Source: Bacteroidota bacterium
GTDB taxonomy: Bacteria; Bacteroidota; Bacteroidia; Bacteroidales; UBA4417
Assembly (NCBI GenBank): GCA_022711175.1
Contig: JAKLFM010000007.1
Location: 1 to 64,000 of the forward strand
Direction of reading: 5' to 3'
DNA length: 64,000 nt
Positions within the stretch are counted from its first letter, which is position 1. Each line of letters opens with the position of its first letter. This document shows positions 2,601 to 17,147 of the stretch, one piece after another. A program made the translations under genes and the position numbers. The notes under the pieces are model-generated. The model searched no databases. It saw only the letters and a program-made list of their open reading frames with translations, and was not told the origin of the DNA.

Positions 2601-3734
2601 ATGATCAGGCGATCTTTAGAACAGTCTTTGCTTGAAAACCTGAAACAAGGACACGTCACAGCATTATTCGGTGCAAAGCGCACAGGTAAAACGGTTTTGA
2701 TGCAGCGAATCGCTGAGATACTTTCCGACAAGAAGATATTGACAGTAAATGGCGAAGATCTTGATGCTGCGACCATACTCTCGTCGCAGAAACAGTCAGT
2801 GCTGAGTAACCTTGTGGCCGGATATGATTACTTATTCATTGATGAAGCACAAAGTGTTCCAAATATCGGGCTTAATCTTAAGCTGCTTGTGGATACCAAC
2901 CCGGGTGTATCCGTATTCGTCACCGGTTCGTCATCGTTTGATCTTCGCAATCAAATAGGAGAACCACTTACCGGCAGGTCGCGTTACTGGAGTATTTTCC
3001 CATTTACTGTTTCCGAAATTTCGCACGATTACCTGGCATTGATGCGATTGTTGCCGTCATTGCTTGTGTTTGGTTCATATCCCCAGGTTTATACAGCCGA
3101 AAATGATAAAGAAAAAAGATTAATACTTGAAAATATCCGTAACGGATATCTGCTGAAGGATGTACTGCAACTCGACAATGTTAAAGACAGTCTGTTTGTA
3201 CTGAACTTACTTAAATACCTGGCTTTTCAAATAGGTAATGATGTATCATTTAATGAATTGGCAAATTCGCTGCATTCAACTGTCAAAACAGTGAAGCGGT
3301 ATATCGAAATACTTGAAAAAGCATTTGTAATTTTTCGGTTAACGGGATTCAGCCGCAATCTGCGCAAGGAAATTTCGAAATCGCCGAGAATCTATTTTTG
3401 GGATAACGGAATCCGAAACGCGGTTATCTCAAGGTTTGAACCATTGGAGTTGCGGGATGATGCGGGGAAATTGTGGGAGAACTTTTGCATCTCCGAAAGA
3501 ATTAAAAAACAAACTTACGCCGAATCATTCTCTTCCTTTTATTTCTGGCGAACCTATGATCAGCAGGAAATAGATTTGATTGAAGAAAACGAAGACAAAC
3601 TCCAAGCGTACGAATTCAAATGGGGCGACAAACCGGCCAGAGTACCTGCCGGATTTGAAAGGACTTACCCGAATGCCACTTTTGAAACTATAAACCGGCA
3701 AAATTTTTACGATTTCTTAATCCCCCGGACCTAG
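2601..3734 (+). CDS. AAA ATPase with DUF4143 C-terminal domain
   Basis: A 377-residue member of the widespread AAA/DUF4143 family of uncharacterised ATPases. Walker A is GAKRTGKT at residues 24-31 and Walker B is YLFIDEAQ at about 77-84, followed by a sensor-like VTGSSSFDL. The C-terminal part has the DUF4143 pattern FYFWRTYDQQEIDLI and a KWG near the end, resembling a PD-(D/E)XK-like fold; whether it cuts DNA is unknown. A TAAATTTG hexamer-type -7 element lies at 2571-2578. It is a single-gene unit. A second, divergent family member lies at 45315. Confidence 0.85.
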   Translation: MIRRSLEQSLLENLKQGHVTALFGAKRTGKTVLMQRIAEILSDKKILTVNGEDLDAATILSSQKQSVLSNLVAGYDYLFIDEAQSVPNIGLNLKLLVDTNPGVSVFVTGSSSFDLRNQIGEPLTGRSRYWSIFPFTVSEISHDYLALMRLLPSLLVFGSYPQVYTAENDKEKRLILENIRNGYLLKDVLQLDNVKDSLFVLNLLKYLAFQIGNDVSFNELANSLHSTVKTVKRYIEILEKAFVIFRLTGFSRNLRKEISKSPRIYFWDNGIRNAVISRFEPLELRDDAGKLWENFCISERIKKQTYAESFSSFYFWRTYDQQEIDLIEENEDKLQAYEFKWGDKPARVPAGFERTYPNATFETINRQNFYDFLIPRT

Positions 3735-3807
3735 CAGCCCGCTTTCTCCTTTCTGATTATTATCAACCTGATAACAGGCCTTAGATCATACAACTGTAAG
3801 CATTGAT

Positions 3808-4443
3808 TTACAAAATATCATCTTTCGGTGGTGCCGGAACAACTGTTGTAAACAGCTCCTTTAAAACTTTAGGGAAATACTCATATTCCAGCGCATGTAT
3901 TTTTTGCGCCAGTGTTTCGGGTGTATCCAGGGGCTCAACAGCGCACTTAGCCTGAAATATAACCTGCCCTTCGTCGTATTTGCCGTTTACAAAATGTATG
4001 CTTATACCGCTCTCCTTTTCACCGGCGGCGATCACGGCTTCGTGCACTTTTGAGCCGTACATGCCTTTGCCACCGTACTTGGGCAACAGCGCGGGATGAA
4101 TGTTTACAATCCTTCCGGGAAATGCCTTCAGCAGGTATTCGGGTATCAGCCATAAAAACCCGGCCAGTACTATCCAGTCAACCGATTGCGACTGCAGGAA
4201 CCGCAGCAGGTCTTCGGTTTCATAAAATGATTTCCGGTTGAAGACCACCGAAGGGATGCCCATTTGTTTGGCACGTTCCAGCACAAAGGCATCAGGCTTG
4301 TTTGAGCAAATTACTGAGATAGTGGCCGATCCGTCGGCATGAAAAAATTCGGCCAGCCGCTGGGCATTGCTGCCATTGCCGGAAGCAAAAACAGCCAGTT
4401 TAGGTTTCGAAACTGCGCCGGTGGCGGCATTGCAAAACATCAT
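3808..4443 (-). CDS. purN: Phosphoribosylglycinamide formyltransferase
   Basis: GAR transformylase of de novo purine synthesis: it transfers a formyl group from 10-formyl-THF to GAR. The sequence has the family opening KLAVFASGNGSNAQRL, then VNIHPALLPKYGGKGMYG carrying the catalytic Asn/His region, and the GISIHFVNGKYDEGQVIFQ segment with the conserved Asp. I start it at the double ATG (4443 or 4440). The open frame runs up to 4617, but the extra 58 residues have no family similarity. About 211 residues is normal. It is divergent from acpP, with roughly 250 bases between the starts. Confidence 0.9.
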   Translation of the reverse strand: MMFCNAATGAVSKPKLAVFASGNGSNAQRLAEFFHADGSATISVICSNKPDAFVLERAKQMGIPSVVFNRKSFYETEDLLRFLQSQSVDWIVLAGFLWLIPEYLLKAFPGRIVNIHPALLPKYGGKGMYGSKVHEAVIAAGEKESGISIHFVNGKYDEGQVIFQAKCAVEPLDTPETLAQKIHALEYEYFPKVLKELFTTVVPAPPKDDIL

Positions 4444-4694
4444 GGTTGAAAAAGGAAAATCATCGACAAAGGAAATAAAAATAGTTCTGTACGCGAAAAT
4501 ACATGCCAAAATCTGTCTCTGACATGACATCATACCCATTCGGAGGCCATCCCGAACGTGTTTCCATGGAGCTTGTATATAACTGATTATCTTGCGTTTA
4601 GAGCGATTTACATGCAAATAATTACATCGAAAGTTGGTTTTTATGATGAAATGGTATTTCTTTGCAGCCCCAAACCAATTAATGAAAAATCACA

Positions 4695-4931
4695 ATGTCG
4701 GACATTGCAACAAAAGTAAAAGCTATCATCGTTGATAAGCTGGGCGTTGATGAAAAAGAAGTCACTCCTGAAGCAAGTTTCACCAACGACCTCGGTGCCG
4801 ATTCGCTGGACACCGTTGAGCTGATCATGGAATTCGAAAAAGAATTCAATATCGCTATTCCCGACGATCAGGCTGAAAAGATCGGAACTGTTGGCGACGC
4901 TATCGCCTACATCGAAAACAACGCGAAATAA
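4695..4931 (+). CDS. acpP: Acyl carrier protein
   Basis: Carrier of growing acyl chains in type II fatty acid synthesis. The 78-residue acidic protein has the phosphopantetheine site GADSLD with Ser37, and the usual helix II sequence [15 protein letters not shown]. It is directly followed by fabF (14-base gap) and rnc, the standard order in many bacteria, so the three are probably cotranscribed. Its start is fixed by the family N-terminus MSDIATKVK. Confidence 0.97.
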
Positions 4932-4945
4932 TCAAATCACGTTTG

Positions 4946-6199
4946 ATGAAGTTAAGGCGAGTAGTAATTACCGGCCTTGGTGCACTGACTCCTGTTGGCA
5001 ATACTGTTCCGGAGTTATGGAATGGTTTGACTGGAGGGGTCAGTGGCGCCGGGCCTATTACCCGTTTCGATGCAACAAAGTTTAAAACTCAGTTTGCATG
5101 CGAGGTAAAGAATTTTGACCCGCTGAATTTCTTCGACCGTAAGGAGGCACGTAAATACGACCTGTTCACCCTTTACGGACTTGTTTCAGCCGATGAAGCC
5201 GTTACTGACGCTTCATTGATTTCGGAAAATCTTGATTTAGACCGTGTTGGCGTTATCTGGGCATCAGGTATCGGGGGTATGTCAACTTTTTACGACGAAG
5301 TTGCCGGTTTTGTGACCGGCGATGGCACTCCGCGGTTCACGCCTTTTATGATTCCCAAGATGATTGCCGATATCGCTGCCGGCCATATTTCGATTAAATA
5401 TGGTTTCCGCGGCCCCAATTTTGCCACGGTGTCGGCCTGTGCCTCTTCGGCCAATGCGCTGATTGATGCGTATAATTATATCAGGCTGAACCAGGCTGAT
5501 GTTTTCATCACCGGGGGCTCGGAAGCGCCGATAAATCCTGCCGGTATCGGTGGTTTTAATGCTTTGCACGCAATGTCAACGCGCAATGACGACCCAGTTA
5601 CAGCTTCGCGCCCTTTTGACAAAGACCGCGATGGTTTTGTGATTGGTGAAGGCAGTGGCGCCATCGTTTTCGAAGACCTTGAACATGCCCTTGCCCGCGG
5701 AGCCAAAATATATTGCGAAGTAGCCGGTGCCGGAATGTCGGGAGATGCTTACCACATGACAGCGCCTCATCCCGACGGACTCGGGGCGATGAACTCGATG
5801 CGCGCGGCTCTTAAAGATGCCGGCCTCAGCGTCAGCGATATCGACCACATCAATACGCACGGCACATCAACACCCTTAGGCGACATTGCCGAAATAAAAG
5901 CCGTTTGCGGAGTTTTTGGAGATCACTCAAAAAACATTGCCGTTAACAGCACCAAATCCATGACCGGCCACCTTCTTGGTGCTGCCGGTGCGGTTGAAGC
6001 CATTGCTTCGGTATTAGCCATACAACATGATGTTATACCCCCTACCATCAATCACTTTACCGATGACGAAGAACTCGGCAACATGGTTGATTTTGTTTTC
6101 AATAAACCTTTGAAACGCAGCGTGAATGCTGCCCTCAGCAATACTTTCGGCTTTGGCGGACACAATGCGTCGTTGATTTTCAAGAAATTCATCCAGTAA
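4946..6199 (+). CDS. fabF: Beta-ketoacyl-ACP synthase II
   Basis: Condensing enzyme that extends acyl-ACP with malonyl-ACP. The catalytic triad is visible: Cys165 in TVSACASSAN, His305 in NTHGTSTPLGD and His342 in KSMTGHLLGAAG. Length, 417 residues, is typical. The ATG at 4946 is preferred over the TTG directly before it (4943). It ends two bases before rnc, so coupled translation is likely. Confidence 0.97.
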   Translation: MKLRRVVITGLGALTPVGNTVPELWNGLTGGVSGAGPITRFDATKFKTQFACEVKNFDPLNFFDRKEARKYDLFTLYGLVSADEAVTDASLISENLDLDRVGVIWASGIGGMSTFYDEVAGFVTGDGTPRFTPFMIPKMIADIAAGHISIKYGFRGPNFATVSACASSANALIDAYNYIRLNQADVFITGGSEAPINPAGIGGFNALHAMSTRNDDPVTASRPFDKDRDGFVIGEGSGAIVFEDLEHALARGAKIYCEVAGAGMSGDAYHMTAPHPDGLGAMNSMRAALKDAGLSVSDIDHINTHGTSTPLGDIAEIKAVCGVFGDHSKNIAVNSTKSMTGHLLGAAGAVEAIASVLAIQHDVIPPTINHFTDDEELGNMVDFVFNKPLKRSVNAALSNTFGFGGHNASLIFKKFIQ

Positions 6200-10223: not shown

Positions 10224-10703
10224 TCAGTACACATATTTCACAACATACCAAACGGCAACAAACTCTTCGATGGTGAGTAAGCCATTGTAATTGAACAATA
10301 TATCGCTGTAACCGGATGATGGACCGTTGTAAACCCGTCCGTCGGATATGTTGGCAATGATATCGCCATAACCCGACGAACTTCCTTCATAAATCCTGCC
10401 GTCGGTTATTGTCATGAAAATATCGGAATAACCTGTGGAAGCGCCGCGGTAAACTTTCCCGTCGGCAATTGTAAAGAGTATATCGCCGTAACTGCCCGAC
10501 GAACCTTTGTAAATACGGTTTCCCCTGATGTTGCAAAGGATGTCGCTGTAGCTGTGCGAACTTTTTTTATACACTTTCCCATCGTCAACACTGCAGACAA
10601 TATCGCCGTAGCTTCCTGACGATCCTTTATAAACATTCACCTGTGCAGAAGCGGAATTAAACAGTACCATGGCTACAATGAAAATGAGAATCCGTCTTTT
10701 CAT
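10224..10703 (-). CDS. Secreted protein of six 20-residue YGDI/YSDI repeats
   Basis: Unknown function. MKRRILIFIVAMVLFNSASAQ is a clear signal peptide. The mature chain is then almost entirely six consecutive 20-residue units of the form (V/I)Y-x-G-x-S-x-x-Y-(G/S)-D-I followed by a short strand and (D)G(K/R). The units alternate strictly YGD, YSD, YGD, YSD, YGD, YSD, so the structural repeat may be 40 residues. The pattern suggests stacked beta-hairpins, such as a small propeller or solenoid. The tail TIEEFVAVWYVVKYVY is outside the repeat. It is convergent with the IPExxxDY-like gene and divergent from the LytTR regulator. Confidence 0.75.
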   Translation of the reverse strand: MKRRILIFIVAMVLFNSASAQVNVYKGSSGSYGDIVCSVDDGKVYKKSSHSYSDILCNIRGNRIYKGSSGSYGDILFTIADGKVYRGASTGYSDIFMTITDGRIYEGSSSGYGDIIANISDGRVYNGPSSGYSDILFNYNGLLTIEEFVAVWYVVKYVY

Positions 10704-10946
10704 AATCTGTTGATATATTATTCTTATTCAACAAATTAAGTGCCAGACAAGAGTTCCGGGCCAACTATTTCACATGTCAGGAATTACGCCGGCACGCGGC
10801 TGGCCTTGAATTCGAAAAGAATTTCAGATGAAATGAAGGCAAGCTGAAATTTCGCAGACGCGCATTTGATTGTCCCGTTTTCAGGATGTCCCGGTCAATC
10901 GTTTTTTGACCATGACAACAATCCGCTCCTTTGGTTCCAAACTTTC

Positions 10947-11016
10947 AACGTTTGTTGATTAAAACCCGGCGTTCGTTTATCTCTTTCTTCATCCTTTATA
11001 TTGCAAACTAACTTTG
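10947..11016 (+). promoter_or_regulatory. LytTR-like direct repeat and -7 element before the LytTR regulator gene
   Basis: GTTTGTTGA at 10950-10958 and GTTCGTTTA at 10971-10979 form a direct repeat with a 12-base spacer (21-base period), the geometry known for LytTR DNA-binding domains such as AgrA. AACGTTTGT at 10947 fits the published core style xxCGTTNGT. TAACTTTG at 11009-11016 is a -7 element 29 bases after the second box, and no -33 TTG is present, which suggests activator dependence. The same arrangement recurs at 15071-15140. The rest of 10704-11118 shows no gene beyond a 14-codon frame at 11028-11072. Confidence 0.55.
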
Positions 11017-11118
11017 ATTTCATCACAATGGGAAAATCATCCTGTCGCAAGCCTGAGAACTTCAGGCCGTAACAGCCTGATTTAAAACGTACAATCTGGC
11101 GAAAAATTCACTATATTT

Positions 11119-11892
11119 ATGGAAATTATCAACAGCAGCTTGCTCCGGACAATCATCATCGACGATGAAGCGCCTGTGCGTGAAACCCTCACCCGGTTGC
11201 TGGTGCTGCATTGTCCGCAGGTTAAGCTGATTGGAGAAGCCGGAAGTGTTGCCGATGGATTGAAGCTTATTCGCGACCTGCATCCCCAGCTTGTATTGCT
11301 CGACATCAGCATGGGCGACGGCACCGGTTTCGACCTCCTCCGCCAGGTTGAAACCATTGATTTTAAGGTCATCTTTATTACCGCGTACGAAAAATATGCC
11401 GTGCAGGCGTTCAAATATGCTGCTGTTGATTTCCTGCTCAAACCCATCAATCCCGAAGAGCTCGCCGATGCGGTAAAACGGGCTGAGATACTTGTGCAGG
11501 AACACTTCAACACGCAGTTTCAGGCATTGGAGGAAAACCTTCGCAGCGACTTCCGTCAGAAAAAGAAGATTGTCCTGAAAACGCTTGAAAACATTTACCT
11601 CGTCGATATGCAGAACATCACCCTTTGCGAATCGGACGGCTGTTATACCATTATTCACACCATTGCAGGCGACCACATTATGGTTTCGCGCACGCTCCAC
11701 GAGTTCGACCTTATGTTCAGCGAACAGGGATTTTACCGTGTGCATAAATCATACCTTATCAACCTGTTGCAGATCAAGCGATTCGAAAAGCAGGAAGGAG
11801 GCTATGTGATACTGAACGACGATCACAGAATCCCGGTGGCATCGCGCAAACGGGAGGAACTGATGGAGCTTTTTGAGAAGCTTGCAAAGTAA
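11119..11892 (+). CDS. LytTR-family response regulator
   Basis: Two-component regulator of the LytR/AlgR type, 257 residues. The receiver domain has the acidic pair Asp15-Asp16 (IIIDDEAP), phospho-acceptor Asp62 in LVLLDISMGDG and the conserved Lys in LLKPINPEEL. A linker leads to a C-terminal LytTR DNA-binding domain from about residue 150, with YLVDMQNITLCESDGCYT and the end VHKSYLINLLQI. The paired kinase follows 136 bases downstream. Direct repeats in its own promoter suggest autoregulation. Confidence 0.93.
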   Translation: MEIINSSLLRTIIIDDEAPVRETLTRLLVLHCPQVKLIGEAGSVADGLKLIRDLHPQLVLLDISMGDGTGFDLLRQVETIDFKVIFITAYEKYAVQAFKYAAVDFLLKPINPEELADAVKRAEILVQEHFNTQFQALEENLRSDFRQKKKIVLKTLENIYLVDMQNITLCESDGCYTIIHTIAGDHIMVSRTLHEFDLMFSEQGFYRVHKSYLINLLQIKRFEKQEGGYVILNDDHRIPVASRKREELMELFEKLAK

Positions 11893-12028
11893 GGCGATAA
11901 AAAATGAGATAGCAGGAATAAGGATGTAAGAGGGAAATGAGAGAATTTGCAGGCTTCGTGGTTTGTTGCTGATTCATACGATTGAAATACCCGTACTTTG
12001 AAAACAGTCTGTTTTAATCATCATATCA

Positions 12029-14107
12029 TTGAACTATAGAATCATAAAATATTTCTTTATTGTTCTGCTGATTTTTATGCAGGGATTGCAAGCGATTGCC
12101 AAGATTCCGAACAATACTGAACAAAGGATAGTAGACAGCCTTTTCAAAATCCTCTCTGGTTCAACGGGTACCACAAAAGTGGATATTCTGAATCTGTTAT
12201 CCAGGCAGTTGAGTCCGCGCACTTTCGATTCCAGTTACAGGTATGCAGATGAAGCACTAAAACTCTCGAAGAAACTCGGCTATGAAAAAGGTGAAGGCGT
12301 TGCCTTATTCTATTTTGGAAACAGCTTTTTCTTTAAATCGGATATTAAAAATACCCTATCAAATTATCATGCCGCATTAAGAATCCTTGAACATTATGAA
12401 CCCTCCTCAGAACTGGCTGACCTGCTTTACCAGCTTGCTCTCGTAAACCAGGTTGTACGGAATGACAAAAAAGTACATTCATACTTTCTCCGTTCTGCAC
12501 GCAATTATTTTAGTATCGGGGATACCTGGAATGAACATTGGGCGCTTTTATTATTGGGTTTGTCCTATTTCTATGAACTTCAGGTTCTCAAAGCCTTGGA
12601 ATTGACCTCTGCCGAAACTGCCAATCGTATGATGGACAGTGCTCTCAGGTACAACGACATTTGTTTCGGATACTTTAGTTCAAAGCATCCCGACCCGTTA
12701 GTGTTATCTAATATTTATAACAACTATGCATTATTTCACCTGGCAAAAAATGAGACTGATGTTGAAAAATATTATCTGAAAGCATTGGATATTGCAATGA
12801 CAATAGAGGAGACCAATTATTGGAGAAATGTCCAGTTGAGTGTTCAGTATGGTAATCTTGGATGGTATTATTATGACTATCTTAAAGATATAAACAGAGG
12901 TTATAAGTTCTGTCTGATAGGAACAGAATTTGACAAGAAAACAGACCGTTTTGACTTGCATTCTGCAGGTTTAGCAGATATGGGAGAAATAGAAATGGCC
13001 CGAGGTCAATATGCGATAGCCAAGGACTATTTTTTTCAGTCAATACTCTCAAGCAACAAGTTGGTTTTAAATATCAGCAAGATCATCCATGTCGATCCGT
13101 CATTCAGGATATGGGGGATAACGGAGACCCGGTCTACACGAATCAGAGTCTTCAAAAACCTGGTCAGTTTATTTGAATTATCTGGAGATTATAAAAAAGC
13201 GTTAGAATATCAGAAGAAAGTCGATGAAGAAAAAAGCATTCTGGCCCAGGATGAGCTCAGCAGGCAGGTTATCGGTCTCGAAGCAGAAAATGATGATAAT
13301 CTGAAAAGGCAGGAGATTGAAAGACTTAACAGGGATAATGAACTGAGAAGGATAAAATTAAATCACGACAGGTTGCTGTTTGGAGGGATCGGGTGTGTAA
13401 TACTGATTGCTTCACTGGTCATCCTGCTTTGGTTGCAGAGGAAGAGGTTCCAATCCAACCGCAAAGCCATGTTACTGGAACAAAAACTGCTCCGTTCGCA
13501 GATGAACCCCCATTTCCTGTTCAATGCCCTCACCGGTATTCAGAACTTCATTGTCAGCCAGAAACCGGATAAAGCCAGCATTTACCTTTCGAAGTTCGCC
13601 AACCTGGTGAGGAACATCCTCGACAATTCGGTGGATGAATATGTGAAGCTGGAAAAAGAGATTAATACCATTGAAAACTACCTTGAACTGCAAAAGATAC
13701 GATATTCGGGCAAGTTCGATTACCGCATCGAAATAGATGATGAAATTGACCCTGAGGTTGTTATGATCCCGCCCATGCTGGCCCAGCCCTTCATTGAAAA
13801 CTCCATTGAGCATGGCATCAAACACCGGGAAACACCGGGACATATTGATATCCGTTTCACCCGGCAGGATGGGACCCTCATTTTTGAAGTGGAAGACAAT
13901 GGCATCGGCCGGGAAAAGGCCCGTGAGATAGGCATCCTGCAAGATCAGAAACACAGGAGTATGGCTACCTCACTTACCATCCAACGCCTGGCAAACCTTA
14001 ACCGTAAGCTTCAGAAAAAGATCATTCTCGAAATTACCGACCTGAAAAATGCACTGGGAGAAGCTGCAGGGACAAAAGTAATGTTTTCGATACCGGTTGA
14101 GGAATGA
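12029..14107 (+). CDS. LytS-type sensor histidine kinase with TPR sensor region
   Basis: Partner kinase of the preceding regulator, 692 residues. A signal peptide or signal anchor (MNYRIIKYFFIVLLIFMQG) begins the protein. A periplasmic region of tetratricopeptide-like helices reaches to about residue 440, followed by one membrane segment (GCVILIASLVILLWL). The kinase core has the His_kinase motif QMNPHFLFNAL with phospho-acceptor His495, then NSIEHGIKH and VEDNGIGREKA of the ATPase domain. It starts at TTG 12029; no ATG lies near. The sensor half is visibly more AT-rich than the kinase half. The signal sensed is unknown. Confidence 0.88.
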   Translation: MNYRIIKYFFIVLLIFMQGLQAIAKIPNNTEQRIVDSLFKILSGSTGTTKVDILNLLSRQLSPRTFDSSYRYADEALKLSKKLGYEKGEGVALFYFGNSFFFKSDIKNTLSNYHAALRILEHYEPSSELADLLYQLALVNQVVRNDKKVHSYFLRSARNYFSIGDTWNEHWALLLLGLSYFYELQVLKALELTSAETANRMMDSALRYNDICFGYFSSKHPDPLVLSNIYNNYALFHLAKNETDVEKYYLKALDIAMTIEETNYWRNVQLSVQYGNLGWYYYDYLKDINRGYKFCLIGTEFDKKTDRFDLHSAGLADMGEIEMARGQYAIAKDYFFQSILSSNKLVLNISKIIHVDPSFRIWGITETRSTRIRVFKNLVSLFELSGDYKKALEYQKKVDEEKSILAQDELSRQVIGLEAENDDNLKRQEIERLNRDNELRRIKLNHDRLLFGGIGCVILIASLVILLWLQRKRFQSNRKAMLLEQKLLRSQMNPHFLFNALTGIQNFIVSQKPDKASIYLSKFANLVRNILDNSVDEYVKLEKEINTIENYLELQKIRYSGKFDYRIEIDDEIDPEVVMIPPMLAQPFIENSIEHGIKHRETPGHIDIRFTRQDGTLIFEVEDNGIGREKAREIGILQDQKHRSMATSLTIQRLANLNRKLQKKIILEITDLKNALGEAAGTKVMFSIPVEE

Positions 14108-14117
14108 GTTGTGTCCA

Positions 14118-14134
14118 ACCTGCCCAAAGCAGGT
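14118..14134. terminator. Small hairpin between convergent genes
   Basis: ACCTGC at 14118-14123 and GCAGGT at 14129-14134 form a 6-bp stem with a 5-base loop, between the kinase gene and the convergent DUF2442 gene. No clear U-run follows, so a terminator role is only possible. Confidence 0.3.
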
Positions 14135-14168
14135 ACTGATTGCCCGCTTTATCGGATTTTAAGTTGTT

Positions 14169-14453
14169 TCAGTGAATTTTCCCTTCCAGCAGATTCTTAA
14201 TGGGGAATATTAAATCAAAGTCATTCCAGTTAAGATTACCGTCAACGATCACGAATTGCCTGAATAACTTCTCATCAAGGTATTTTTGGATAGAAGGATG
14301 ATGGGAATTTAAAAGAAAAGGCTTGAATTCCACCAGTTTTTCATCGCCGGTGTTAAATTTAATATTGATAGCAAAATTCCCGGCATAGTTGGCAGAAATT
14401 ACTTCCACTACGTCGTTTCCATAAACTTCAATCGGTTCTTCAACTATTCTCAT
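14169..14453 (-). CDS. DUF2442 domain protein
   Basis: A 94-residue protein matching the DUF2442 pattern: a short strand-rich N-terminus, FNTGDEKLVEFKPFLLN, then KYLDEKLFRQFVIVDGNLNWNDFDLIFPIKNLLEG. Its start overlaps the stop of the DUF4160 gene by 4 bases (14450-14453), so the two are translationally coupled. DUF4160/DUF2442 pairs have been proposed as toxin-antitoxin-like modules; nothing here tests that. Confidence 0.8.
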   Translation of the reverse strand: MRIVEEPIEVYGNDVVEVISANYAGNFAINIKFNTGDEKLVEFKPFLLNSHHPSIQKYLDEKLFRQFVIVDGNLNWNDFDLIFPIKNLLEGKIH

Positions 14454-14755
14454 TTTAGCGGTTTATTGATCCTTTCAAATTCGACTTCTTTATGATAAAC
14501 AAAATACTCAACCCATTTTTCGACAATTCTTTCCCCATAATGGCTGATAAAGCTTTTAAAATCATTCAATTTTGAACCCGTCAACGGTTTTCTCCCTTTC
14601 TCCGGTCTAATTCTTACTTCGATAATCGTGCCATTTTCAATTAAAAACTCGGCTGTAATCTCATATTCATTGTACTTCCCGTGCACATGAACCGGCTCAT
14701 GCTCATTCGAATAGAAAAAGATGATGATTCCTAAATACTCATATATCTTGGGCAT
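14450..14755 (-). CDS. DUF4160 domain protein
   Basis: Small protein of 101 residues from the ATG at 14755, which gives the family N-terminus MPKIYEYLGIIIFFYSNEHEPVHVHG. The frame is open to 14791, but the extra residues are not part of the family. His/Glu-rich EHEPVHVHGKYNEYE is the hallmark segment. It forms a two-gene unit with the overlapping DUF2442 gene, placed between the two-component pair and its likely target gene. Confidence 0.8.
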   Translation of the reverse strand: MPKIYEYLGIIIFFYSNEHEPVHVHGKYNEYEITAEFLIENGTIIEVRIRPEKGRKPLTGSKLNDFKSFISHYGERIVEKWVEYFVYHKEVEFERINKPLK

Positions 14756-14934
14756 ACCACTCCATTTCGTGTAGCACAAATTTACAAACAAATTAGTTTT
14801 TTAGTTTACATTTCCTGTTGTAAGACCAATGCTTCCTTAAGAAACCGCTTGGATTATGTGTATGTATGTTGTATATTTGTTTATAGTAATTTATGCGTCG
14901 ATTAAGCTATAAGGCTCGTAACCTCATTCAGCCA

Positions 14935-15060
14935 TATCTCTTCCCTTCTCATTTTCTCATCTCCATATCTCCAAATTTTCTCATTTTCTCTTCTTCTCTC
15001 TTTCTCACATTCTCATCTTCCCACATTCTCACTTTCTCCTTTTCTCCACTTCGTCCCTCT
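14935..15060. repeat. Pyrimidine-rich low-complexity tract
   Basis: About 125 bases almost free of G, made of TTCTCATTTTCTC-like words in irregular order. It lies in the 14792-15227 gap. The open frame across it is a composition artefact. Confidence 0.7.
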
Positions 15061-15070
15061 TTTAAACTAG

Positions 15071-15140
15071 AGCGTTCGTTTACCCAACCCCGGTGTTCGT
15101 TTATCTTCCTCATTCTCCTGTTTCCTGCCAATTATTTTTG
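15071..15140 (+). promoter_or_regulatory. LytTR-like direct repeat and -7 element before the beta-helix gene
   Basis: GTTCGTTTA occurs at 15074-15082 and again at 15095-15103, an exact 9-base direct repeat with a 12-base spacer. TATTTTTG at 15133-15140 is the -7 element. The distance from the second box to the -7 element, 38 bases start to start, is the same as at the regulator's own promoter (10971 to 11009). No -33 TTG is evident. The likely bound protein is the response regulator encoded at 11119. Confidence 0.6.
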
Positions 15141-15227: not shown

Positions 15228-17147
15228 ATGAAAAAATTTACTTTTATTGTGGGCAGTATCTTAGTTACTGCTACCTTGCAGGCAAAGGTTATCCATGTGC
15301 CCGGCGATTTTCCTACCATCCAGCAGGGAATCAATGCTGCCGGTAACGGCGACACTTTGCTGGTTGCTGAGGGTACGTATTACGAACAGATCAACTTCCT
15401 CGGGAAACCTTTAACCGTAGCCAGCCATTTTCTTATGGATGGCAATTCGGGTCACATCGACAATACTATTATTGATGGAAGCAATCTCACCATCCAAATG
15501 GACAGCGCATCCATGGTGTATTTTGTTTCGGGCGAAGATAGTACCTCTATTCTGTGCGGGTTTACGATCAGGCAAGGGAAAGGAACGGCCTACTATTACG
15601 ATGGTATGAACAGAAGACAGGGCGGAGCAATATTGACCTCCCTCTCCGGGGCTAAGATCATTCATAACCATATTACAGATAACCATGTAAGTAGTCTGCA
15701 GCCTTTGAATACGGAATCGGTCGGCGGCGGCGGAGTAGGCAGTACCGATCTGTACGATGACCACTGGGTTGTGATTAGTAATAATGTAATTGATATGAAT
15801 ACATGTGATTGCCACGGCACCTGGTCGTGCGGAGGAGGAGTTCAAACCCATGGTAATGCAAGGATCAGCAATAATACTATATCAAACAATACCTGCACCA
15901 GCACTGGGACTTCTGCTTCTATCGGCGGAGGCTTCAACTGTGCGAATATGGATGCCTCTGAACCGCTTATGGCAATTGTTAAGCACAATGTTATTAAAGA
16001 TAATCATTGCACGGCACTTACCACCTATGCTGCCTCTCCTGGTGGAGATTTTGAATTTATGGATGGCGTTTTATCGGATAACCTGATTGAAAATAATTCA
16101 GCAACCACGAATTCCAATAATAGCTATTACAAAAGTGGCGCTGTATCATTTCTTAATCCGGGTTCATATTCAGAAGCAAAGAACAACACTTTTCGTGCAA
16201 ATACCAATAACAAGTGGAGCGGTGGACTGGCAGTTGTTGGGTGGTTTGTGGATGACTTGCATACAATGCTTGTTGAAAATAACTATTTCCTGAATAACGA
16301 AGCGAAGACTGGAGGGGCATTCGGAGCTTATTCCAATCCTGTTATGTTACAAAACAATGTATTTAGCGGTAATCGCGCCAGTCATAATGGCGGAGCGATC
16401 TATTGTGATAATCAAAAGGGAGTAGATTTTAGTCATATGGTCACATCAATCAATAACAGTTTCTCCGGGAACAAGGCTGATCAGCAGGGCGGGGCGATTT
16501 ATACCGGGCCGAATCATGCTGTTAAACCATTGGTTATCAATTCAATATTTTGGGGCGACATGGCAAGCGAAGGTGCTGAAATCTACACGGCATACCCTTC
16601 GGACACACTTGAAATCGCCAATTCCGATTTTAATGCGGCATCGGTTCATGGAACCGTTCTCGATGGCCTTGGAAACATCAATGAAGACCCCCAATTTTCC
16701 GATACAGTGAATCTTATTCCTTCAATATCAAGCCCAGTTCTTGATAAAGGGACAGATTCGTACCTGAGTACCGGAAACGAACTGTACTTTGCCCCTGCCT
16801 ATGATATTACCGGATTATCGAGGCCTTGGGGATTAGGCTATGATATGGGTGCTTATGAATATGGATTTGTAGGAACAGGACCGGGAGAGGCAAACGAAAC
16901 AAACATCTACCCCAACCCGTTTACAAATACAGTCACCATCAGCTACACAACTTACAGCTCCGGCCCGGTTTTGATAGAGGTTTTCGACCGCATTGGCCGG
17001 CAGGTAAAAGAATTATACAACGGCAATCGCACTTCCGGCACTTACCGGGTCTCTTGGAATGCCGAAGGAATGCCTGCAGGCCTCTATTTTCTCAGGATTC
17101 AAAAAGGTAACCAGGCAGAAACCGGGAGAATGATCCTGCTGAAATAA
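15228..17147 (+). CDS. T9SS-secreted right-handed parallel beta-helix protein
   Basis: Secreted protein of 639 residues. The signal peptide is MKKFTFIVGSILVTATLQA. It opens with VIHVPGDFPTIQQGINAAGNGDTLLVAEGTYYEQ, the usual first coil of pectate-lyase-like beta-helices, and continues with many N/G-rich coils of the form ISNNTISNN to about residue 550. The C-terminal 80 residues (NIYPNPFTNTVTISY to MILLK) form a type A sorting domain for the type IX secretion system, so the product is exported through the outer membrane and probably surface-attached. No catalytic residues can be named. A LytTR-like operator precedes it. Confidence 0.87.
   Translation: MKKFTFIVGSILVTATLQAKVIHVPGDFPTIQQGINAAGNGDTLLVAEGTYYEQINFLGKPLTVASHFLMDGNSGHIDNTIIDGSNLTIQMDSASMVYFVSGEDSTSILCGFTIRQGKGTAYYYDGMNRRQGGAILTSLSGAKIIHNHITDNHVSSLQPLNTESVGGGGVGSTDLYDDHWVVISNNVIDMNTCDCHGTWSCGGGVQTHGNARISNNTISNNTCTSTGTSASIGGGFNCANMDASEPLMAIVKHNVIKDNHCTALTTYAASPGGDFEFMDGVLSDNLIENNSATTNSNNSYYKSGAVSFLNPGSYSEAKNNTFRANTNNKWSGGLAVVGWFVDDLHTMLVENNYFLNNEAKTGGAFGAYSNPVMLQNNVFSGNRASHNGGAIYCDNQKGVDFSHMVTSINNSFSGNKADQQGGAIYTGPNHAVKPLVINSIFWGDMASEGAEIYTAYPSDTLEIANSDFNAASVHGTVLDGLGNINEDPQFSDTVNLIPSISSPVLDKGTDSYLSTGNELYFAPAYDITGLSRPWGLGYDMGAYEYGFVGTGPGEANETNIYPNPFTNTVTISYTTYSSGPVLIEVFDRIGRQVKELYNGNRTSGTYRVSWNAEGMPAGLYFLRIQKGNQAETGRMILLK

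Follow-up and report, generated by a model that had tools for sequence, protein, structure and literature searches.

The window analyzed here is a stretch of 64,000 nucleotides from a Bacteroidota bacterium of the order Bacteroidales (assembly GCA_022711175.1, contig JAKLFM010000007.1, positions 1 to 64,000), in which two promoters are each preceded by a pair of direct repeats resembling the operators of LytTR-domain response regulators. The first promoter lies upstream of a gene for such a regulator, which is followed by a gene for a LytS-type sensor kinase, and the second precedes a gene for a secreted β-helix protein with a C-terminal sorting domain of the type IX secretion system (T9SS). 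The original prediction from this DNA was that the regulator activates its own gene and the β-helix gene through these repeats. The features concerned are the following.

10928..10937, + strand, degenerate upstream box 0, CCTTTGGTTC, matching CGTTYGTTTA at 7/10 positions and lying one 21-bp period above box 1
10949..10958, + strand, box 1 of the regulator operator, CGTTTGTTGA
10970..10979, + strand, box 2 of the regulator operator, CGTTCGTTTA, with CCCGG directly before it
11009..11016, + strand, -7 element of the regulator promoter, TAACTTTG, 29 bases past box 2
11119..11892, + strand, response regulator of 257 residues with Response_reg (PF00072, 3.8e-20) and LytTR (PF04397, 8.9e-18) domains
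12029..14107, + strand, LytS-type sensor kinase (His_kinase PF06580 and HATPase PF02518) with an exported TPR-like N-terminal part and one membrane span
15073..15082, + strand, box 1 of the β-helix operator, CGTTCGTTTA
15094..15103, + strand, box 2 of the β-helix operator, TGTTCGTTTA, with CCCGG directly before it
15110..15113, + strand, TCAT in the -33 slot of the β-helix promoter, a position conserved across a wider set of 38 sites
15133..15140, + strand, -7 element of the β-helix promoter, TATTTTTG, 29 bases past box 2
15228..17147, + strand, secreted β-helix protein of 639 residues, the predicted target, with the T9SS C-terminal sorting domain (PF18962, 3e-11)

The two sites have the layouts CGTTTGTTGA-N11-CGTTCGTTTA-N29-TAACTTTG (site 1, 10949-11016) and CGTTCGTTTA-N11-TGTTCGTTTA-N29-TATTTTTG (site 2, 15073-15140). 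A check of the sequence reproduced the geometry originally described, with 9-base boxes starting at 10950/10971 and 15074/15095, a 12-base spacer and a period of 21, a distance of exactly 38 bases from the start of box 2 to TAnnTTTG in both promoters, and no TTG in the -33 slot of either. The CGTTNGT core proposed for the boxes holds for three of the four, box 2 of site 2 beginning with TGTT. Boxes and spacer of these sizes fall within the range by which LytTR operators are defined, two to three direct repeats of 8-11 bases separated by 10-13 bases (PMC4847170, PMC11347149), and the -7 elements agree with TAnnTTTG, the consensus of Bacteroidota primary sigma promoters (PMC7366714, PMC9723704). 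The gene assignments of the prediction also stand, as the protein encoded at 11119 has both PF00072 and PF04397, so that with the adjoining PF06580 kinase it constitutes a LytS/LytTR two-component pair, and the protein encoded at 15228 has PF18962 in a genome that also encodes SprA (SprA_N) of the T9SS machine.

The prediction had named frequent occurrence of the motif at random positions as an observation that would count against it, but a genome scan gave the two window sites only. A single 9-mer is uninformative (the window has 21 matches with ≤1 mismatch against an expectation of 17); with 0-1 mismatch the pair pattern occurs nowhere else in the whole 3.61-Mb genome, and with 2 mismatches its matches are at background level and no commoner than those of a reversed control. 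The exact full composite of boxes and -7 element is confined to the two window sites among 393 genomes of the order.

Orthologs of the regulator are present in only two other genomes of the genus (16 genomes), G014 (81%) and G007 (75%), the best match in the remaining genomes of the genus being ≤39%. The composite is found in 3 of the 16, namely the window genome, G014 and G007, which are exactly the carriers of the regulator ortholog, and in all three it precedes the regulator gene; in G014 it additionally precedes an ortholog of the β-helix protein and a 281-residue exported protein. The four congener sites were picked by their boxes alone, the -7 element forming no part of the search, yet in all four a -7 element matching at 5 or 6 of its 6 letters follows at a distance of exactly 29 bases, and the intervening sequence has diverged. 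In G350, which belongs to another family, a single operator is followed by genes for β-helix proteins of 1305 and 636 residues, two secreted proteins of 784 and 806 residues, the regulator (74%) and the kinase. The β-helix protein of the window has orthologs under an operator in both G014 (47%) and G350 (46%), and the recurrence of the site before the regulator ortholog in two congeners, before the β-helix ortholog in one and before the G350 operon supports the original view of the boxes as LytTR operators linked to these genes. The single-operon arrangement of G350 is probably ancestral, and we infer that the window contains a split operon, each half of which has its own operator. Between the kinase gene and the β-helix operator, the window contains a DUF2442/DUF4160 gene pair (14169-14791, - strand) at a place where the G350 operon is uninterrupted, and this pair could be a trace of the event by which the operon was split.

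The geometry extends well beyond these orthologs. LytTR loci were scanned, independently of letters, for self-similar 10-mers that recur at a set period 5' of TAnnTTT(G/A); with one site counted several times through register shifts, there were 72 matches at period 21 against 4, 0, 6, and 3 at periods 19, 20, 22, and 23. A CGTT-anchored grid covering 15 periods and 25 gaps, with a partly overlapping set of loci, placed 18 counts in the single bin 21/35, a gap of 35 after CGTT being equal to 29 after a 10-base box; the next-highest bins (17/35 and 25/31) result from an internal repeat in CGTTCGTT. When CGTT-N13-CCGGCGTT followed by TAnnTTTR was searched with the gap left free between 20 and 50 in 295 genomes of the order, 17 of 23 matches, including the window, were at gap 35, the other six comprising two within longer box arrays and four scattered matches, and the reversed pattern gave 2 matches in the same genomes.

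The wider set of 38 sites has the consensus CGTTcat...A..aAacCCCGG CGTTcatt.Att.Aa.CCCGG CGTTcAt.cATcTg.tTCATttt..C.tTtt..g.gt.G TA..TTTa. Up to three CGTT boxes at the 21-bp period, with CCCGG before CGTT, are usual, box 0 being CGTT in 29/38 sites, and one site has a fourth box. The -33 slot contains TCAT in 29/38 sites and TTG in 0/38, so that the TTTG found at -33 of Bacteroidota promoters is lacking; the letters of the boxes differ between sites and the geometry is constant. Related sites occur with other LytTR systems at L163, L200, and L222, the last with a gap of 30, and the distance from box to -7 element may therefore vary by one between subfamilies. A class-wide search for GTTYGT boxes with a free gap recovered the two window sites and, beside other LytTR systems, L200 at 29 and L222 at 30; the remaining matches were scattered and had no LytTR neighbors.

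It should be noted that several other searches were less useful. The raw count of a loose CGTT/CGTT/-7 pattern in the 295 genomes was rejected as a measure, since it mixes chance matches, which are mostly antisense within coding regions, with real-looking, repeat-like sites just 5' of start codons; a second match to this pattern in the window genome (C221:2886), which overlaps a long open reading frame on the opposite strand, was taken as chance. A position weight matrix derived from the initial seven sites was overly restrictive and recovered only L087. A self-repeat scan of the 600 bases upstream of less closely related regulators yielded a single site, because the regulator gene of those genomes is located toward the end of its operon, and scanning whole loci found more.

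At sites found by the DNA pattern alone, the downstream genes encode T9SS cargo in nearly every readable case, and a LytTR regulator and kinase often follow the cargo in the same operon. A PF18962-type sorting domain was detected with Pfam in all 10 of the downstream proteins tested, the bodies of which are of esterase, C10 peptidase, kelch, receptor-L, and β-helix types. A regulator 51-68% identical to that of the window is present in 9/10 of the operator-positive genomes checked, and identity is ≤45% in all 44 genomes of other families compared, so that the sites are tied to a LytTR-domain regulator by both linkage and co-occurrence.

We consider it very likely that the repeats serve as operators for the LytTR regulator encoded at 11119 which, when phosphorylated, would raise expression of its own operon and of the β-helix protein encoded at 15228. 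This proposal builds on sequence, spacing, conservation, gene linkage, and co-occurrence, from which binding, phosphorylation, activation, and the signal are inferred. In the proposed mechanism, the neighboring kinase, with its exported TPR part, would phosphorylate the regulator, and two LytTR domains (ancestrally three) would lie side by side on the same face of the DNA, since the 21-bp period corresponds to two turns. The distance from box 2 to the predicted start site is 29 + 8 + 4 = 41 bases, provided that TAnnTTTG spans -12 to -5 (PMC9723704). The promoter-proximal domain would then end about 41 bases 5' of the start site, adjoining a -33 slot that contains a TTCAT-like sequence instead of TTTG, and the bound regulator could assist RNA polymerase carrying the primary sigma factor in its use of the -7 element, increasing production of the regulator operon and of the type IX secreted β-helix protein. 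That binding would lead directly to activation, and not to some other result, is suggested by the promoter geometry and by analogy with ComE and YpdB: the absence of TTG at -33 from 38 sites fits a promoter that requires an activator, and a predicted ComE-like distance together with a YpdB-like repeat favors activation beside a missing -33 element.

The boxes could instead be LytTR operators at which the regulator represses, its bound protomers blocking access of sigma in the manner of CoxC at PcoxB. There is a precedent in the three-repeat operator of CoxC, which lies over the -35 element and represses (PMC11347149), and three boxes are also common in the wider set described here. However, box 2 in the window ends 29 bases before the -7 element, just 5' of the -33 slot, so that repression of the CoxC type, in which the -35 is covered, is less likely here; the lack of TTG at -33 in all 38 sites fits a need for an activator, and the predicted operator distance agrees with that of ComE, which is an activator (PMC6560143). 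Repression is thus quite unlikely. That the repeats are accidental, arising from a mobile or coding repeat or by chance, is scarcely credible; single boxes are frequent by chance and the 21-bp arrays of G666 show that such periods can have another origin, but the pair is unique in the genome and is conserved at syntenic positions between diverging flanks, and its constant distance to the -7 element in unrelated promoters, seen in both the period-by-gap grid and the free-gap search, contradicts accident.

An alternative that bears more on the identity of the binding protein is that a LytTR paralog or an unrelated factor recognizes the boxes and that the linked regulator is a bystander. Several observations weigh against our assignment and in part lend themselves to this alternative. 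Further LytTR-like regulators exist in the window genome (9 matches in total) and could bind instead, and genomes have several such genes each. The correlation of box similarity with regulator identity is weak (Mantel r 0.24, p 0.007), with the LytTR domain showing no advantage over the receiver (r 0.29); since this covariation is weak and not LytTR-specific, co-evolution is not separated from descent, and a box code is at present a hypothesis. One G014 site has a weak -7 element, GAAATTTG, and some sites are at a considerable distance from the start codon, approximately 450 bases in the case of the G014 β-helix gene. On the other hand, box type tracks the regulator subfamily, in the same 3/16 genomes of the genus and in 9/10 versus 0/44 genomes across the order, and the occurrence of operator, cargo, and regulator in common operons argues against a bystander. 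A different binding protein is therefore improbable, and operators of the linked regulator are the preferred reading.

The window pair would, in this reading of linked operators, belong to a larger promoter family of the Bacteroidales, each member serving a T9SS cargo set with its own LytTR regulator. We lean, by a modest degree, toward the further proposal of a standard cassette in this order, in which as many as three CGTT boxes, each preceded by CCCGG and repeated every 21 bp, are followed by TTCAT at -33 and by TAnnTTTA/G. The geometry of this cassette would be constant and variation would be limited to the 3' halves of the boxes, so that parallel LytS/LytTR pairs in one genome would each switch on a private type IX cargo set. 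If this is true, the letters of the boxes would be a readable specificity code by which cargo sets could be assigned to regulators from sequence alone.

Some further sites and loci were noted in the course of this work. A second box type, CGTTAACTGATT twice with period 21 and gap 35 to the -7 element, is present at L252, L256, and L258 and at places in G129, G067, G118, and G122, often 5' of exported proteins in several families. CGTT boxes with the same period and gap at L237 (G272:C1:3410525; CGTTAATCAA twice) and L233 (G124:C34:181604) lie 55-69 bases 5' of an operon for a membrane-fusion protein and an RND efflux protein. Seven sites in G143 (L236 and six more), which have the form CGTTAAATTAA...CCGTTAATAAA and gap 35, appear to form another regulon of the same geometry. 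In the related genomes of L286 (G193:C15:38473) and L287 (G284:C16:13953), the regulator gene after the operator is apparently broken, with one TAG within the receiver match and an open frame of only 136 residues. The kinase ortholog follows the regulator in L044, L045, and L197; in L044 of G014 there is a four-helix-bundle-like open reading frame between the two, as well as a second kinase gene after the first (2246-2677 and 2999-5835). The window itself has a pyrimidine-rich, low-complexity tract with CTCATTTTCTC repeats (14930-15060) immediately 5' of the second operator and, divergent from the regulator gene, a gene for a small exported protein of near-identical GSSGxYGDI-type repeats (10224-10703, - strand).

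LytTR-like regulators are numerous, most genomes of the genus having approximately 20-40 matches to the window regulator, receiver-only matches included. The recurrence of the layout in many related bacteria, ahead of genes that encode a LytTR regulator and surface proteins secreted by the type IX system, suggests that a single, widely distributed on-switch serves sets of exported proteins. This ties a large regulator family to these proteins, and the fixed distance from motif to -7 element makes regulons readable from sequence. In the open-licence literature searched, no LytTR operator has been described in Bacteroidota and no paper on such a widespread switch was found. To our knowledge, little is known of the control of type IX secreted surface proteins apart from PorX/PorY of Porphyromonas gingivalis, a system that likewise ties two-component control to type IX secretion. 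PorX is not a LytTR protein and is known for controlling the secretion machine; we know of no role for it in controlling cargo operons through LytTR boxes.

RcoM1 and CoxC share with the wider family three evenly spaced LytTR direct repeats (PMC11347149) but are one-component CO sensors, and CoxC overlaps the -35 element and represses. YpdB of Escherichia coli, which acts at PyhjX, is also part of a LytTR/LytS pair and has a direct repeat, GGCATTTCAT, close in its letters to GGCGTTCATA of the wider family; its cooperative binding to two sites has been proposed to recruit polymerase (PMC4847170). It has one direct target gene in E. coli, whereas the predicted targets here are operons of cargo genes and, in many cases, that of the regulator itself. 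The closest parallel in promoter geometry is with ComE of Streptococcus pneumoniae, which has a pair of LytTR direct repeats spaced 11-13 bases apart, the right repeat lying 42-44 bases (mode 42) before the start site (PMC6560143), a distance that the predicted value for the window matches within about 1 base; the comCDE two-component operon is, moreover, itself a ComE target. The systems differ in the letters of the boxes, in the third upstream box present at many of the sites described here, in the Bacteroidota -7 promoter without a -35 element, and in the cargo, which consists of type IX secreted proteins, no peptide pheromone having been seen. The comparison suggests that the geometry of LytTR activation in Firmicutes works at -7 promoters without a -35 element.

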